Positions 57,911-64,000 of a stretch of DNA of 64,000 bases are shown in pieces (within the stretch, counting starts at the first letter, position 1; every line of letters begins with the position of its first letter). The DNA is taken from contig NZ_BOOW01000009.1 of the NCBI RefSeq assembly GCF_016863435.1, positions 124,001-188,000 of the forward strand. Reading direction: 5' to 3'. A program made the translations under genes and the position numbers. This stretch comes from Sinosporangium siamense (GTDB taxonomy: Bacteria; Actinomycetota; Actinomycetes; Streptosporangiales; Streptosporangiaceae). The notes under the pieces were generated by a model that made no database searches, had not been told where the DNA came from, and was given only the letters and a program-made list of their open reading frames with translations.

Positions 57911-58288
57911 ATGGTCGCCAAGCACGAGCTGGGACGCAGTGGAGAACAGATGGCCGTCGACTATCTGGTGGCCCGGGGCATGCAGATACTCGACCGCAAC
58001 TGGCGGTGTCGTTACGGCGAGCTCGACGTGGTCGCGCGTGACCGCAGCGAGCTGGTCGTGATCGAGGTCAAGACAAGATCTGGGCGCAGACACGGCTCGG
58101 CCTTCGAGTCCGTGACGACCGACAAGCTGCGACGAATCCGGGCGCTGGCGGCCCGCTGGGCACAGGCACAACGGCTGGCGGCAGGTCCAGGAAACTGCAT
58201 CGCCTTTAGCGCGATCCGCGTGGATGTCGTCGCCCTTGAACGCATCGGTGCCACTTACACCATTCGGCATGACCGGGGGGTGGCCTAA
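57911..58288 (+). CDS. yraN: UPF0102 nuclease-like protein YraN
   Basis: This 125-aa protein has an endonuclease-like fold: GRSGEQMAVDYLVARGM, LDRNWRCRYGELDVVARD and VVIEVKTRSG, where the E-x-D...EVK set resembles Holliday-junction-resolvase type metal sites. Its function is poorly defined. The ATG at 57911 has GAGGGGG upstream. It is directly followed by comM and then dprA, all DNA-processing genes. Confidence 0.93.
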   Translation: MVAKHELGRSGEQMAVDYLVARGMQILDRNWRCRYGELDVVARDRSELVVIEVKTRSGRRHGSAFESVTTDKLRRIRALAARWAQAQRLAAGPGNCIAFSAIRVDVVALERIGATYTIRHDRGVA

Positions 58289-59824
58289 ATGGCAGTCGCG
58301 CGCACCCATTGCGTGGCGATCGTCGGAGTCGGCGGGCACACCGTCGAGGTCGAGGCCGACATCGGCAACGGACTGGCCGGCATGCACCTCATCGGCCTGC
58401 CCGACACCGCTCTCAGCGAAGCCCGCGACCGCGTCAGGTCGGCCTTGGTCAACAGCCGTTTCCCATGGCCCGACACCCGCATCACCGTAAGCCTGTTCCC
58501 CGCGACCCTGCCCAAGCGGGGCAGCCAATTCGACCTCGCGGTAGCCGTGGCCATACTGGGCGCGGCCGGCGTCGTGCCCGTCGACCGCGTGGCCGAGCAC
58601 TACTTCCTCGGCGAGCTTGGCCTCGACGGCCGGCTGAGGCCCGTCCGCGGCCTGCTCCCGGCAGTGCTAGCGGCGGCCGAAGCCGGCTGCCCCACGGTCG
58701 TGGTGCCCGCGGCCAACGCGGCTGAGGCGTCCTTGGTGCCCGACATCACGATCGTCCCCATGAACGACCTGCGCTCCCTCGTGGACTGGCTCCAGAAGGA
58801 CGATCCCATTTCCGATATGCCGGTGGTGATCCGTCAACCAGGGGAGTCCAGCGACGGAGACACCACCGCGGACCTCTGCGAAGTGGTCGGTCAACCTATA
58901 GGACGTCGAGCCCTTGAAGTCTGCGCCGCCGGAGGCCACAACCTTTGGATGCTGGGCCCACCCGGCACCGGCAAGACCATGCTCGCCGAACGCATGCCCA
59001 CACTGCTCCCACCCCTGGAGCGCGATCACGCCCTGGAGGTCACAGCCATCCACTCCGTCGCCGGAGTGCTTCCTCCCGACTGCCCTTTGCTCACCCGCGC
59101 GCCCTTCATCAGTCCCCACCACACCGCGACCGTGGCCTCCGTGGTCGGCGGAGGCACCGGCATGATCAGGCCAGGAGCCGTCTCCCTCGCCCACAGAGGA
59201 ATCCTGTTCCTAGACGAGGCCCCCGAGTTCCCAAGAAGCGTCCTAGATTCCCTACGCCAACCCCTGGAGTCCGGCTTCGTCACAGTGTCGAGAGCCTCCG
59301 GCACCGTGACCTTCCCCGCCCGCTTCACCCTGATCCTCGCCGCCAACCCCTGCCCATGCACCCAGGCATCCGAACAGGGCGAGGCCTGCCGCTGCACCCC
59401 AACCGTCCGCCGCCGATACCTAGGCCGCCTATCCGGCCCCCTCCTAGACCGCATCGACGTCAAGATCACAGTAGCCCGCTCCTCCCGCAGCGAACTCCTG
59501 GCCGATCGAAGCTTCGTAGAGTCCAGCAAAACCGTGGCAGAACGCGTCCTCCTGGCCCGCAGGAGAAGTGCCCGCCGCCTAGCCTCCACCCCGTGGAGAA
59601 CCAACGCCGAGATCCCCTCCAGCGCCCTCCACTCCGACTTCCGCCCCCCAGACGAAGCCATGAAGCCCCTAACCGCCTGCCTGGACAACGGCTCCCTCAG
59701 CGCCCGAGGCCTAGACCGAGTAGTACGCGTCGCGTGGAGCATGAGCGACCTGTCCGGAAAGCGTTGCCCAGGCCCGGAGGAGACCGCCGGCGCCCTTGCA
59801 CTTTGGCTGGGGATGGACCTGTGA
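58289..59824 (+). CDS. comM: ComM/YifB AAA+ ATPase (Mg-chelatase-like)
   Basis: This 511-aa AAA+ protein belongs to the ComM family, a helicase that promotes branch migration during integration of DNA in natural transformation. The N-terminal lon-like domain reads VEADIGNGLAGMHLIGLPD. The ATPase has Walker A GPPGTGKTM, Walker B ILFLDEAPEF and PARFTLILAANPCPC. The C-terminal domain holds RGLDRVVRVAWSMSDL. The ATG abuts the yraN stop. In relatives dprA overlaps the comM stop; here a short out-of-frame GTG ORF occupies that place and dprA starts later. Confidence 0.95.
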   Translation: MAVARTHCVAIVGVGGHTVEVEADIGNGLAGMHLIGLPDTALSEARDRVRSALVNSRFPWPDTRITVSLFPATLPKRGSQFDLAVAVAILGAAGVVPVDRVAEHYFLGELGLDGRLRPVRGLLPAVLAAAEAGCPTVVVPAANAAEASLVPDITIVPMNDLRSLVDWLQKDDPISDMPVVIRQPGESSDGDTTADLCEVVGQPIGRRALEVCAAGGHNLWMLGPPGTGKTMLAERMPTLLPPLERDHALEVTAIHSVAGVLPPDCPLLTRAPFISPHHTATVASVVGGGTGMIRPGAVSLAHRGILFLDEAPEFPRSVLDSLRQPLESGFVTVSRASGTVTFPARFTLILAANPCPCTQASEQGEACRCTPTVRRRYLGRLSGPLLDRIDVKITVARSSRSELLADRSFVESSKTVAERVLLARRRSARRLASTPWRTNAEIPSSALHSDFRPPDEAMKPLTACLDNGSLSARGLDRVVRVAWSMSDLSGKRCPGPEETAGALALWLGMDL

Positions 59825-59888
59825 CCGCGATCGTGTGCCGGACCAAGCACCGGACGTGGCTGAAGCGGACCTCTGACCGGCCGATTAC

Positions 59889-62816
59889 GTGCCGGTCTCT
59901 GGTGGATGGAGCGGATCAACGGTGACCTCGCCAATGCTTCGAGAAACAGCCCACGCCTTCGACGGTGTGGGCGGTCGGCCCAACCAGGAGGAAGGGGAAG
60001 CCGCAGTCCATCACAGGGCAACCGCACGGACACTCCACCGCCTCGGCGACCTCACTTATGGCGAGCGGACACTACATGGCGATAGCCGAGAGAGAACACC
60101 ATGCGTTCTGGTGTCCCACCAACACAAGGGACCAGACCACAGAAAGGTCGAGCCAGATGACTTTGCCATGGAGAAGGCCGCCCCTGTCACCGCGGAAAGC
60201 GGGCCAGCGAGAGGAGAGCACTACTGGGGTCATCCAGGCGATGAGGGCTGGTTCGAGATAGAGAAGGCTCCTCAGCTGGGGCTGGACGACCCATATGTCT
60301 GGGGGATTCATGGTGGAGAGAAGTCGGATGTGTCGGGGGTTGCTCATCGATGGGATTCGAGCGACGCATTCCCCTGGAGCACTCCCGGTGAAGAGGGGCA
60401 GCCAGGAGTGGAAGGTCTTGCTCCATCAGGTCCAGTGACTTCTTCCCCCGCGGGAGTTCCTGAAAGCGAAAGTCGAGTCGGACCAGAGAGCGCCCCTCAG
60501 GTGGGCTCAGGTGGCATGCAACACCAGAGCAATCACGGTGCAGAGAGCCAGCCGGAAGAAGTTCGTCATCTGGGTACGGGTAAAGATGAGTCTGTCCTAG
60601 TCATGGGCGCGGGTTTCGCCTCCCCGCCGGTCGATAGACCAGTGTCCGATTCGGCCGTAGGCCATGACCCCCTGCCGGCCTCAGATCCATGCGTCGAGCC
60701 GGGAGGCTCAAGCGCCGACCGTGCCTCGCCTTCCAATACGGATCCCGTTTCCGGCGGCTTCTTGCCGACTTCCGATCCCAGGGCCGACTTCAAACCGATT
60801 GGTGCCTTGGGTACCGGTTGCACGTCGGGTGCTGATCCCGGGCAGGTGTCAGGTCCCGGTTTCACGACGGACTCTGGTGCGGATGCTAGCTCTGTGCCCG
60901 TTTCGGTGTTGGGCTCTGGCTGTGCGGCGGATTCTCCTTGTCTGTCGGCGTTCGATCCAGACACTGGGGATTCCAGCTGTGCCTCGGGTTCGGGTTCACG
61001 TTCGGACTCTGGCTGTGCTCAGGTTTCTAGTTCGGAAACTGACGTGGGTGTCGCCTCAGGCGTTGGTTCCGCATCAGTCTCCGAACTGAACCCTGGCCGT
61101 GACCGTGCCTCGGGTTCCGACTTTCGGCAACTCTCCGTTCAGGGCTCTAGCCGTCCCCAACCTTCACATCTGGGCCTTGCCTCGGGGAACATCGCGAATC
61201 TGGAGGATGCCTTGGCTATCCCGGACGTCGATTGCTCACATCCGGGCCTTGCTTTGGGGGAAGTCGCGGATGGTGGCGGCGATGGCCATGCCTGCCCAAC
61301 CAGCACGTCCACTGCGAGCCCTCGTCCCCAATCGGCTCGCGGTGATGCTGGTGCCGTACCGAACTCCGATTCGGCTTTCGAGTGTGATCAGAGCCTTGAC
61401 CACGTATCGGGATCTGATTCTGCATCGGGTTCTGAGCTTGAGCTCATACGGGGTTCTGAGCCTGAGATTGAGGCTGGGAGTGGGATCGGTCCCGAAGTCG
61501 GCGGTCTGCAGTCGGCCGGCGATCAGTCCCGTGAGCTAGGGGATCGAACTGACAGGGCGGCTTCTGAAAGGAGCGCCGATCCCATGCCTTCGGCTGCTCC
61601 TGGTGGAGGAAAGAGCAGTCACCGGCGGGAGGCGGTCGCTCGGGCCGCGCTCATGAGGATGTGTGAAGCGGGCGATCAGGTGATGGGGCGACTGGTTGAA
61701 GCCCAAGGCGCGGTCGATGCCTTCGATCGCATTCGTCTGCATGAACTGCCGTCTGAGTTCGTCGATGAGGAGATGGCACGGGCGCGAAAGCAGAGACGTA
61801 CGTTCGACGCGGCCAAGCTGATCAGTGCGTGGACGAATCGGCTCGACAGTGCTGACCCGCTCACGGATCTTCGGATAGGGGAGGAACAGGGAGGAAGGCT
61901 TGTCGTGCCTGGGGATGTCGAATGGCCGACACAGCTCGATGATCTTGAGACTGGCCAACCCTTGGGACTGTGGCTTCACGGTTCTGCGGATCTGCGATTC
62001 TCCTGTCTACGTTCGGTGGGGGTCGTAGGGGCGCGGGCAGCGACGCCCTACGGAACCCACGTCGCCACCGAGATCGCCGCCGGTCTGAGCAGTGCGGGGT
62101 GGGGAGTTGTCTCGGGTGGCGCATATGGGATCGACGGGGCAGCACATCGTGGGGCGCTGGCCGGAGCGACCCCGACGGTGGCTGTGCTCGCCTGCGGGGC
62201 TGACGTCTGCTACCCAAGCGGACACCAGGACCTGTTCGCAGCGATCCGAAAATCCGGCCTGATCGTGAGTGAATGCCCTCCAGGAGTTCGCCCGACGAGA
62301 GCACGTTTCCTAGTGCGCAACCGTCTGATCGCCGCCCTCTCACGAGGCACACTCGTTGTGGAGGCCGCCCTGCGCAGTGGAGCTCTCAACACCGCCGCAC
62401 ATGCGTTGGCACTCAAGCGCCACCTCGGTGCCGTGCCGGGTCCAATCACCTCTCTCAACTCAGCCGGCTGCCACCGACTGATTCGAGATGCGAAAGCCAC
62501 ATGTGTCACCTCATGCGAGGAGATGATCGACCTGGTAGGAGTGCTTGGCGAGGAGGCCGCAGTCGAACAGGGCGGCCCAGTGGTGCCCCATGACGTTCTG
62601 TCTCCCAACACGCGCCTGGTCTTGGACGCCGTCCCAGCCCGTAGGGGCGCAGGCCCGGCAACTATCGCCACTACCGCCGGAGTCGACCTACCTACCGCGC
62701 TGAGTTCTCTCGGCAGCCTGGCCGCTGCAGGATATGTCGAGCGCGTGCCACAGGGGTGGCGCCTACGCCACACCCGGAACACACGGCATTCGCCAAGCTC
62801 GTCTGCGTCGGGTTGA
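59889..62816 (+). CDS. dprA: DNA-processing protein DprA with very long low-complexity N-terminal frame
   Basis: DprA protects single-stranded DNA and loads RecA. The C-terminal 400 residues are a normal DprA: AALMRMCEAGDQVMGRLVEA, then the Rossmann core VGVVGARAATPYGTHVATEI, GAYGIDGAAHRGAL, RFLVRNRLIAALSRGTLVVE and a winged C-terminal domain. Upstream, the same frame stays open for 565 codons with Ser/Gly/Asp-rich text (ASGSGSRSDSGCAQVSS) and lower GC than its neighbours. A plausible independent start is ATG 61584, with AAAGGAG about 10 nt before it, giving a standard 410-aa DprA. I cannot decide whether the long frame is translated; the GTG at 59889 has no strong ribosome site. Confidence 0.8.
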   Translation: MPVSGGWSGSTVTSPMLRETAHAFDGVGGRPNQEEGEAAVHHRATARTLHRLGDLTYGERTLHGDSRERTPCVLVSHQHKGPDHRKVEPDDFAMEKAAPVTAESGPARGEHYWGHPGDEGWFEIEKAPQLGLDDPYVWGIHGGEKSDVSGVAHRWDSSDAFPWSTPGEEGQPGVEGLAPSGPVTSSPAGVPESESRVGPESAPQVGSGGMQHQSNHGAESQPEEVRHLGTGKDESVLVMGAGFASPPVDRPVSDSAVGHDPLPASDPCVEPGGSSADRASPSNTDPVSGGFLPTSDPRADFKPIGALGTGCTSGADPGQVSGPGFTTDSGADASSVPVSVLGSGCAADSPCLSAFDPDTGDSSCASGSGSRSDSGCAQVSSSETDVGVASGVGSASVSELNPGRDRASGSDFRQLSVQGSSRPQPSHLGLASGNIANLEDALAIPDVDCSHPGLALGEVADGGGDGHACPTSTSTASPRPQSARGDAGAVPNSDSAFECDQSLDHVSGSDSASGSELELIRGSEPEIEAGSGIGPEVGGLQSAGDQSRELGDRTDRAASERSADPMPSAAPGGGKSSHRREAVARAALMRMCEAGDQVMGRLVEAQGAVDAFDRIRLHELPSEFVDEEMARARKQRRTFDAAKLISAWTNRLDSADPLTDLRIGEEQGGRLVVPGDVEWPTQLDDLETGQPLGLWLHGSADLRFSCLRSVGVVGARAATPYGTHVATEIAAGLSSAGWGVVSGGAYGIDGAAHRGALAGATPTVAVLACGADVCYPSGHQDLFAAIRKSGLIVSECPPGVRPTRARFLVRNRLIAALSRGTLVVEAALRSGALNTAAHALALKRHLGAVPGPITSLNSAGCHRLIRDAKATCVTSCEEMIDLVGVLGEEAAVEQGGPVVPHDVLSPNTRLVLDAVPARRGAGPATIATTAGVDLPTALSSLGSLAAAGYVERVPQGWRLRHTRNTRHSPSSSASG

Positions 62817-63170
62817 GTGGTGGTTGCGTGGGTCTGGCTCTGCGCACTTCCTGGGGCGCCTGGTTTGCGCTGGTTACTCCGCCGTGATGGTAGTTGTGAT
62901 CAATCTGTCTACCAGGGGCTTTTCTCTGCTCGGGGATTTGCGGGCTTGCTCTGTTCGGTTATCTGTTGGCCTTGGGGAAAGTGCTCGCGGGGGAAATAGT
63001 GGCTTGTTGTTCTGGGGATTGACTTATATGGCTAGTTTCATTGGGTTGTTGTGGAATTACGCAATCTAAACGTGGGGTATATGTCTGGAGGCTTGTACGT
63101 GGGGGTGGGGGGCGATATGGCACATTGTCGATCTTGTTGGCTTGCTGGTGGGTATGTGTTCGTTGGTGTT

Positions 63171-63195
63171 GGGGTGTTGGGGTGTTGGGTTTGGG
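63171..63195 (+). other. G-quadruplex-type motif
   Basis: Four G runs of 4, 4, 3 and 3 bases are separated by TGTT, TGTT and TTT, a textbook quadruplex pattern with short loops. It lies about 350 nt upstream of xerC. Confidence 0.7.
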
Positions 63196-63306
63196 TAAGG
63201 CGGCCCTGAATCTAGTGGGACCTGTATTTCTGGTCGTGTATCGGTGACGCTTGGCTGCACCTGGGGGGTTACGGAGAGGGCGCTGTCCTTGACGGAACGC
63301 CGTGGT

Positions 63307-63332
63307 GGGTGGTGGTTTGGGGTGGGTTGGGG
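63307..63332 (+). other. Second G-quadruplex-type motif
   Basis: Runs GGG, GGGG, GGG and GGGG are separated by loops of 9, 1 and 2 nt, about 215 nt upstream of xerC. It is weaker than the motif at 63171 because of the long first loop. Confidence 0.5.
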
Positions 63333-63545
63333 TTCCTGCTGGGCTTGTCGGTCGTGGAGGCTGGGGGTGGCGGGTTCCGGTGGGATGTCGAGGGTTTTCT
63401 CGTATATTGCCGTGTATTGCGTGGAAAAACGCCGAAAGTTGGAGAGGGGCGTTAGGTCTGTTTGAGTAGCATGGCGATCATCGCAACCACCGGTGTGAGG
63501 TGCTTGTGAGAGTGTGCTAGTCGAACAGAGTCGCGTGGAGGGAAA

Positions 63546-64000
63546 ATGGCTGCTGAGGGGAGGTTTAGGGGCGGGACTCAAATGGATGGGAGTAGTGAGT
63601 CTCCGGGATTCGAGCAGGTCGCGGGGGAGTTTCGGCGACACCTAGAGCTCGAGCGGAATCTCTCGTTTAACACCATTCGGGGCTATATGTCGGATCTAGC
63701 GGGATTTGTGGCCCACATTCGTTCCGAGGGTGAGGTGACGCTCCCCTCTATCGACGTTCACGTGATGCGTGAGTGGCTGGCCCTGCAGCACGATGCCGGC
63801 AGGTCGCGTGCGACCCTTGCGCGGCGGACCGCATTCCTGCGCACCTTCACCGCTTTTGCTCACCGCCGCGGCTGGCTGCGTCGGGATCCTGGGCTTCTCC
63901 TCGGTACGGCGAAGGCCACCAGGGCGTTGCCCGAAGTCCTCAACCGGTACGAGGCGAAGGCTGTGCTCGATCGTGGGCTTGTCGGGGTCGCCAAGGACGT
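63546..64000 (+). CDS. xerC: Tyrosine recombinase XerC-like, 5' part
   Basis: This is the N-terminal 151 codons of a tyrosine recombinase; the catalytic domain lies beyond the window. After a Gly/Ser-rich start (MAAEGRFRGGTQMDGSSESP) comes the core-binding SAM-like domain: FRRHLELERNLSFNTIRGYM, ATLARRTAFLRTFTAFAHRR and RALPEVLNRYEAKAVLDRG. XerC works with XerD to resolve chromosome dimers at dif. The position after dprA is standard in actinobacteria. The ATG at 63546 follows GGAGGGAAA; an in-frame ATG at 63582 is the alternative. Confidence 0.9.
   Translation, partial: MAAEGRFRGGTQMDGSSESPGFEQVAGEFRRHLELERNLSFNTIRGYMSDLAGFVAHIRSEGEVTLPSIDVHVMREWLALQHDAGRSRATLARRTAFLRTFTAFAHRRGWLRRDPGLLLGTAKATRALPEVLNRYEAKAVLDRGLVGVAKD

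Follow-up and report, generated by a model that had tools for sequence, protein, structure and literature searches.

The dprA reading frame of Sinosporangium siamense raises the question of where the DprA protein begins. In the stretch of DNA analysed here (64,000 nucleotides, positions 124,001 to 188,000 of contig NZ_BOOW01000009.1; referred to as the window), the open reading frame (ORF) that ends in dprA lies on the + strand at 59889-62816. It comprises 975 codons with GTG as the first, and 565 of them precede ATG 61584, where an ordinary DprA would start. Our analysis suggests that this open frame is probably a real N-terminal arm of DprA, which would be translated, grown by duplication, hypervariable and disordered, and carried on an otherwise ordinary DprA. 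Five features of the sequence support this reading: the open frame itself, the phase of its repeats, its composition, the ribosome sites near the upstream gene yifB in relatives, and the recurrence of such arms. From these features we infer translation, the start codon used here, slippage as the source of the repeats and the lack of a specific function.

Between yifB and ATG 61584 the only stop in the dprA frame is at 59874, after which the frame remains open to the dprA stop at 62814-62816. The 565 codons contain no stop, which confirms the open frame reported in a preliminary description of the window. The other frames of the same gap contain 28 and 7 stops (forward) and 14, 15 and 10 stops (reverse). 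Over the 584 open codons up to DprA residue 16, 17.5 stops were expected from base composition, 13.8 from a codon-position-specific composition model and 13.5 from a first-order Markov model, for which the minimum among 2000 simulations was 3, and none was observed. The supposition that a run of more than 1.6 kb without a stop is unlikely to be due to chance was thus borne out, and chance opening of the frame, given these expectations and the stops in the other five frames, was ruled out.

The degenerate repeats noted earlier in this region are real. Four direct-repeat families, with spacings of 93, 405, 72, 384 and 24, were found in the arm, and 9 self-matches were obtained at threshold 11 compared to a mean of 1.0 in shuffled sequences. 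The best internal duplication, all positions being on the + strand, is 36 nt long (61164-61199 and 61236-61271, lag 72), and others lie at 60377-60403 and 60527-60553 (lag 150) and at 61427-61442 and 61451-61466 (lag 24). Three degenerate 25-nt repeats start at 60911, 61004 and 61409 (within 60911-61433; spacings 93 and 405). All nine self-match lags are divisible by three (nominal p = 5e-5, the matches not all being independent). At threshold 12, yifB gave three self-matches and dprA one, none of which was in phase.

The composition previously described as rich in Ser, Gly and Asp is rich in Ala and Pro as well (81 Ser, 81 Gly, 55 Ala, 50 Pro and 46 Asp among 565 residues), and the fractions of Cys plus Trp and of large hydrophobic residues are lowest in the dprA frame. 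The GC content, as had been remarked, is lower in the arm (0.61-0.64 in 500-bp segments) than in the whole window (0.68), and dprA itself is also below the window average. A structure model was made with AlphaFold2 for the 960-residue form starting at ATG 59934, using 45 relatives. The result showed that 565 of the 960 residues, nearly all of them before residue 556, fall below a predicted local distance difference test (pLDDT) score of 50, and that no helix or strand is predicted before residue 558, where a confident three-domain DprA begins. Low confidence in the arm is expected from the input as well as from disorder, because the relatives were trimmed to DprA and left the arm without an alignment. 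Together with the disorder-like composition, the model supports the view that translation would give DprA a large disordered arm. The stop-free frame, composition, in-phase repeats and pLDDT argue for a predicted intrinsically disordered N-terminal arm at 59922-61583 (+ strand, 554 codons), presumably coding.

The same junction was surveyed in relatives. Together with the window, 140 loci fetched from the family gave 141, of which 135, including the window, could be measured; four without a detectable N-terminal domain and two without yifB were dropped. The 140 loci are biased towards kin of the window since they were drawn from the upper part of a match list (matches in 331 of 341 genomes); a number of weaker matches, and at least four located at contig edges, were left out. 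The loci without an N-terminal-domain match (L254, L255, L256 and L275, in our numbering) may contain large inserts, or their SAM domain may have diverged or been lost. The spacing between the yifB stop and DprA residue 16 ranged from 2 to 1990 bp and was at least 200 bp in 69 of the 135 loci; the neighbouring yraN-yifB junction, used as a control, reached 200 bp in none of 127 loci (maximum 196). These 69 long gaps (68 relatives and the window; counts uncorrected for kinship) contain 76 stops in the dprA frame and 239, 286, 217, 260 and 244 in the other frames. No stop at all was found in the dprA frame of 43 of them, compared to 4, 9, 16, 12 and 13 in the others, a favourable outcome of the check, proposed in the preliminary description, of whether relatives whose DNA has diverged also keep the frame open. 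The window itself is outside the 43 because of its stop at 59874. Among the three forward frames, the dprA frame has strictly the fewest stops in 44 of the 69 gaps, compared to 2 and 7 for the other two. The longest stop-free gap, in L164, extends over 1830 bp, and its other frames contain 19 and 9 (forward) and 7, 3 and 11 (reverse) stops.

The 135 loci were labelled as N-terminal extension (at least 60 open codons; 58 loci), linker insert (18), untranslated spacer (nc_spacer; 6, of 378 to 1097 bp) or short (53). The linker between the SAM and Rossmann domains is a second insertion site, at which 42-254 residues without stops are inserted in 18 of the 135 loci (e.g. L257, L248, L230, L238 and L210). 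On a quick tree of the 135 DprA cores, the extension label changes 22 times, at least 13 of the changes being forced by well-supported branches, and the linker-insert label changes 10 times, at least 7 of them forced; the counts are approximate, because the extension label includes some loci that probably start near the core (e.g. L269, L277, L141 and L196). Another 45 named loci (L036-L080) are mostly from outside the family (L037, Planomonospora, is inside). Seven of the 25 that could be measured have gaps of at least 200 bp, and long gaps are therefore not strictly confined to the family; no linker insert of at least 40 residues was found among these 25.

Tandem arrays make up 20.8% of the extension DNA and 0.0% of the core (44 loci). 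With overlapping arrays removed, 56 of the 61 arrays of open extensions and 18 of 18 in interdomain linker inserts had unit lengths that are multiples of three, compared to 6 of 23 in untranslated stretches, defined as those of at least 240 bp upstream of the last stop (Fisher p = 7e-9). Because open stretches are chosen for their openness, the two gap sets were also pooled, and 62 of 84 units were divisible by three (p = 4e-14). The arrays upstream of the last dprA-frame stop in L166, L161, L186, L269 and L144 resemble untranslated minisatellites, and 17 of the 23 upstream arrays have units that are not divisible by three.

Composition was compared between the dprA frame and the mean of the other five frames in 44 open extensions of at least 100 codons. 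On average, the dprA frame is poor in Cys, Trp and large hydrophobic residues and rich in disorder-promoting residues. All six measures differed (p between 2e-6 and 1e-13), the dprA frame having on average the least Cys plus Trp and the most disorder-promoting residues (p about 1e-13). In 15 untranslated control stretches, four of the six measures showed no difference and two were marginal (p = 0.041 and 0.048). The effect persisted in all 58 gaps of at least 300 bp, for which four measures were tried (p = 2e-7 to 3e-9). Low third-position GC is common to the arms of 13 relatives.

A mechanism consistent with these results can be proposed. Overlap of the dprA start with the yifB stop is frequent in this family, and the DNA from that junction to the SAM domain may be prone to duplication, tandem copies probably being produced by slippage during replication or by unequal recombination. 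Downstream of the start codon, duplications would be retained only if they comprise whole codons and contain no stop, and in-frame growth would lead to a hypervariable disordered arm of up to about 600 residues before an ordinary SAM-Rossmann-winged-helix DprA. Growth before the start would leave an untranslated spacer, with repeats indifferent to the reading frame, and the SAM-Rossmann linker would be a second site where growth is tolerated. In S. siamense, a long form of 964 amino acids would be made from GTG 59922, possibly alongside a short form from ATG 61584.

The start codons were evaluated by the duplex energy of their ribosome sites, with 627 internal NTG codons from 22 clear ORFs of the window as background. 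The preferred start of the long form is GTG 59922-59924 (+ strand), which would give a protein of 964 amino acids (98.7 kDa) with the N-terminus MTSP; the predicted arms of several relatives begin in a similar way (e.g. MTPP, MTPS and MSTP). It is preferred because GGAG (59908-59911) lies ten bases upstream with a duplex energy of -10.6, a value reached by about 1.3% of the background codons. It is also preferred because GTG 59821, which overlaps the yifB stop, is out of the dprA frame, and the TGA of its ORF overlaps the in-frame GTG 59922. This 34-codon ORF (59821-59925, + strand), linked at both ends by GTGA overlaps, is a possible leader coupling the yifB stop to GTG 59922. An alternative start, ATG 59934-59936 (+ strand), lies 109 nt past the yifB stop and has a duplex energy of -7.4; the predicted start of the sister species Sinosporangium album is an ATG at the same distance (+109), with a duplex energy of -12.4. 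Taken together, these features make GTG 59922 the most likely start of the long form.

Start sites were also examined in 46 loci with a gap at least 90% open, using non-start codons as controls. In the 120 bases that follow the yifB stop, ribosome sites were much stronger at start codons than at other codons (mean -6.11 versus -2.65, p = 3e-13), with -7 or better being reached at the 5' end in 24 of the 46 loci. A dprA start in frame and overlapping the yifB stop is present in 42 of 53 short, 21 of 58 extension, 8 of 18 linker-insert and none of 6 untranslated-spacer loci.

A second start may lie just past the end of the arm. AAAGGAG (61567-61573) was found ahead of ATG 61584, as described earlier, and the site (61567-61586, + strand) has a duplex energy of -12.0, reached by 2 of the 627 background NTG codons and none of 183 ATG codons. 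It could start a short form of 410 amino acids (42.7 kDa). The strength of this site and the enrichment of similar internal sites in relatives make a short product, in addition to the long one, a possibility to be taken seriously. In the 46 loci, sites no more than 20 codons from the core are stronger at start codons than at non-start codons (mean -6.62 versus -4.46, p = 1e-4), also when the 30 loci whose gaps are at least 400 bp long are taken alone (p = 0.0065); 15 loci have a near-core site of -7 or better, and 9 have such sites at both ends. These near-core in-frame sites are stronger than local composition explains, hinting at internal starts in several relatives. The alternative that two products are made, one of 964 amino acids from GTG 59922 and one of 410 from ATG 61584, with read-through from yifB determining their ratio, does not conflict with the explanation preferred here and adds a second start to it. 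We give it somewhat less than an even chance. Both sites of the window score well, and the near-core enrichment and the nine loci with both ends speak for it. However, the near-core stretch is purine-rich (non-start codons average -4.46 there and -3.20 in the middle) and its signal is therefore partly compositional, some of the 46 loci may have the near start alone, the density of ATG codons is not significantly higher close to the core (p = 0.23), and S. album has none near the core among its three best candidates.

Close pairs of loci were compared for signs of selection. Eight pairs have BLAST matches in their gaps; seven were used for the ratio of nonsynonymous to synonymous substitution rates (dN/dS), five for reading phase and for the corresponding ratio of differences (pN/pS), and four for stop avoidance. 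The reading phase is kept in four of the five pairs (879/879, 478/481, 368/379 and 680/712 columns). When the substitutions of four pairs were relocated, in one direction, 7.1 stops were expected and 1 was observed (minimum 1 in 2000); the sole stop, from L153 to L192, is likely an alignment artefact, and with a per-pair probability of no stop of 0.05 to 0.38 the result is supportive but not strong. Purifying selection on the residues of the arm was considered and rejected: the codon-alignment dN/dS of 0.44-0.76 (seven pairs) suggested constraint, a reading that a wrong-frame control on nucleotide alignments (five pairs) undid. The nearest genome is that of S. album (L001/L279), of the same genus, with a DprA 71% identical to that of the window. 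In S. album, three dprA-frame stops occur in the first 88 bases after yifB, and 136 open codons then follow, an extension opened by an ATG with a ribosome site. No homology is claimed between the window's arm and this extension, the local alignment score being 56 compared to a shuffled mean of 49 and maximum of 65.6.

Several observations weigh against a translated arm or weaken the evidence for it. One pair, L158/L160, does not keep phase (89/152 columns), and indel lengths depend on the aligner: in MAFFT alignments 13 of 13 are multiples of three in three pairs and they are mixed in four, and in BLASTN alignments they are mixed. In five relatives' pairs, the dprA frame has a pN/pS of 0.71-1.02, with no consistent reduction relative to wrong frames. 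One reverse frame is as poor in Arg as the dprA frame, and disorder-promoting residues make up 0.755 of the window's dprA frame and 0.746 of one of its reverse frames. Codon usage of the arm is not genome-like (-0.43 bits per codon, compared to +0.04 for yifB and -0.25 for dprA), and a reverse frame of the arm scores better (-0.13); a reverse frame also beats the true frame in dprA itself. Openness was in part a precondition of the array and composition tests made on open stretches, and codon phase and low complexity could outlast the loss of translation for a while. No 5' site of -7 or better is present in 22 of the 46 open loci, and internal sites near the core are enriched in relatives, as at ATG 61584; the strength of that site and this enrichment may leave room for a short form, either beside the long one or alone.

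With the DprA core at a dN/dS of 0.06-0.13 (seven pairs) and the arm at the pN/pS given above, it is the frame and not the residues that is kept. Since selection holds the frame and the disorder but hardly the sequence, the arm would most likely be a tether that the protein tolerates and not a domain for specific binding. The alternative that the arm has a selected function (tuning oligomers, tethering RecA or the single-stranded DNA-binding protein SSB, or forming condensates on single-stranded DNA), with its bulk properties alone conserved, appears rather unlikely. Recurrence at two domain borders (58 extensions and 18 linker inserts in 135 loci), a composition held disorder-like and the absence of growth at the yraN-yifB junction would fit it. 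However, the length of the arm varies from nearly nothing to about 600 residues between relatives, the arms of the sister species share no alignable sequence, pN/pS is near 1, and 53 of the 135 loci are short.

It is less probable still that only the short form is made and that the arm represents either a coding extension abandoned not long ago or a spacer whose repetitive composition leaves it open. The strong site at ATG 61584, the codon usage of the arm, which is unlike coding sequence, the untranslated spacers in six relatives' loci, and the best sites near the core in other loci such as L269, L274 and L277 are consistent with such a reading. It is opposed by the lack of any stop where 13.5 were expected, which a long-abandoned frame should have collected, by the nine of nine repeat lags in phase and by the disorder-like composition in the dprA frame. 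A separate gene or noncoding RNA between yifB and dprA, for which the gap would be large enough, is very improbable and was rejected: no in-frame stop separates the arm from dprA, the 565 residues before ATG 61584 match no Pfam family, the only two Rfam matches (20 and 17.1 bits) are far under their gathering thresholds (50 and 45), and no second copy of the arm was found elsewhere in the genome at E 0.01.

The protein behind the arm is an ordinary DprA. It scores 208.4 bits against TIGR00732 (curated cut-off 191.15), whereas it reaches 144.8 bits against the enterobacterial-type model NF008007, under that model's own cut-off of 495. Its Rossmann core lies at 61857-62537 (+ strand; PF02481, 217.8 bits). 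The structure model places an N-terminal helical (SAM-type) domain at 61605-61844 (+ strand; helices at model residues 558-637, pLDDT about 95) and a C-terminal winged-helix (DML1) domain at 62604-62765 (+ strand; model residues 891-944), the latter with a weak, below-cut-off Pfam match to HTH_IclR. Both flanking domains, present in most but not all DprA proteins, are thus predicted here. In a Foldseek search the model matched solved DprA structures, with 3maj (E = 7.6e-22) and 3uqz (3.4e-18) first by their Rossmann fold, and DprA structures were matched by sequence too. DprA dimerises and loads RecA on single-stranded DNA. A ComEC-type protein with a Competence domain (PF03772, E = 4.9e-44) is also present in the genome; its presence says little about competence because the family was also matched in 10 of 14 control genomes.

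Upstream of dprA lie yifB (58289-59824, + strand; stop TGA 59822-59824), which encodes a Mg chelatase-like AAA ATPase (TIGR00368, 485.5 bits, cut-off 362.4) known as ComM in some bacteria, and, directly adjoining it, an ORF at 57911-58288 (+ strand) that is presumably yraN. Downstream, 62817-63545 has lower GC and its two strands differ strongly in composition (GC skew up to 0.46, AT skew of about -0.4), and the ORF at 63546 beyond it presumably encodes a XerC-type recombinase.

Compared to known DprA/Smf proteins (TIGR00732 and PF02481; structures 3maj, 3uqz and 4ljk), the window's DprA has the same predicted Rossmann core, N-terminal helical domain and C-terminal winged helix, but differs by about 554 additional residues in front, which are predicted to be disordered. 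The available part of a survey of DprA domains gives the SAM, Rossmann-fold (RF) and DML1 domains and no such arm (PMC9769556). No report of such a DprA arm was found in the open-licence literature in PubMed Central, subscription papers being outside the scope of the search.

Slippage-driven, repeat-based length variation of disordered protein regions is a general phenomenon. The window's arm is like such regions in its low complexity, tandem-repeat origin and whole-codon growth. It differs in that growth in this recombination mediator is concentrated at two places, a single operon junction and a single interdomain linker. The growth recurs many times within the family, and untranslated spacers located at that operon junction provide an internal control.

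Given the wide conservation of DprA, a disordered arm that exceeds DprA itself in length and has arisen many times in one bacterial family is unexpected. Because translated and untranslated arrays share the junction, it provides a natural experiment on how selection for the reading frame shapes minisatellites. Automatic annotation may truncate such DprA proteins at an internal start. It is conceivable, although improbable on the present sequence evidence, that the repeat-generated arm is selected for length, charge or disorder and, in long and short forms, tunes the assembly of DprA on single-stranded DNA. Differences in recombination between species would then be due to an arm that becomes unrecognisable even among members of one genus.

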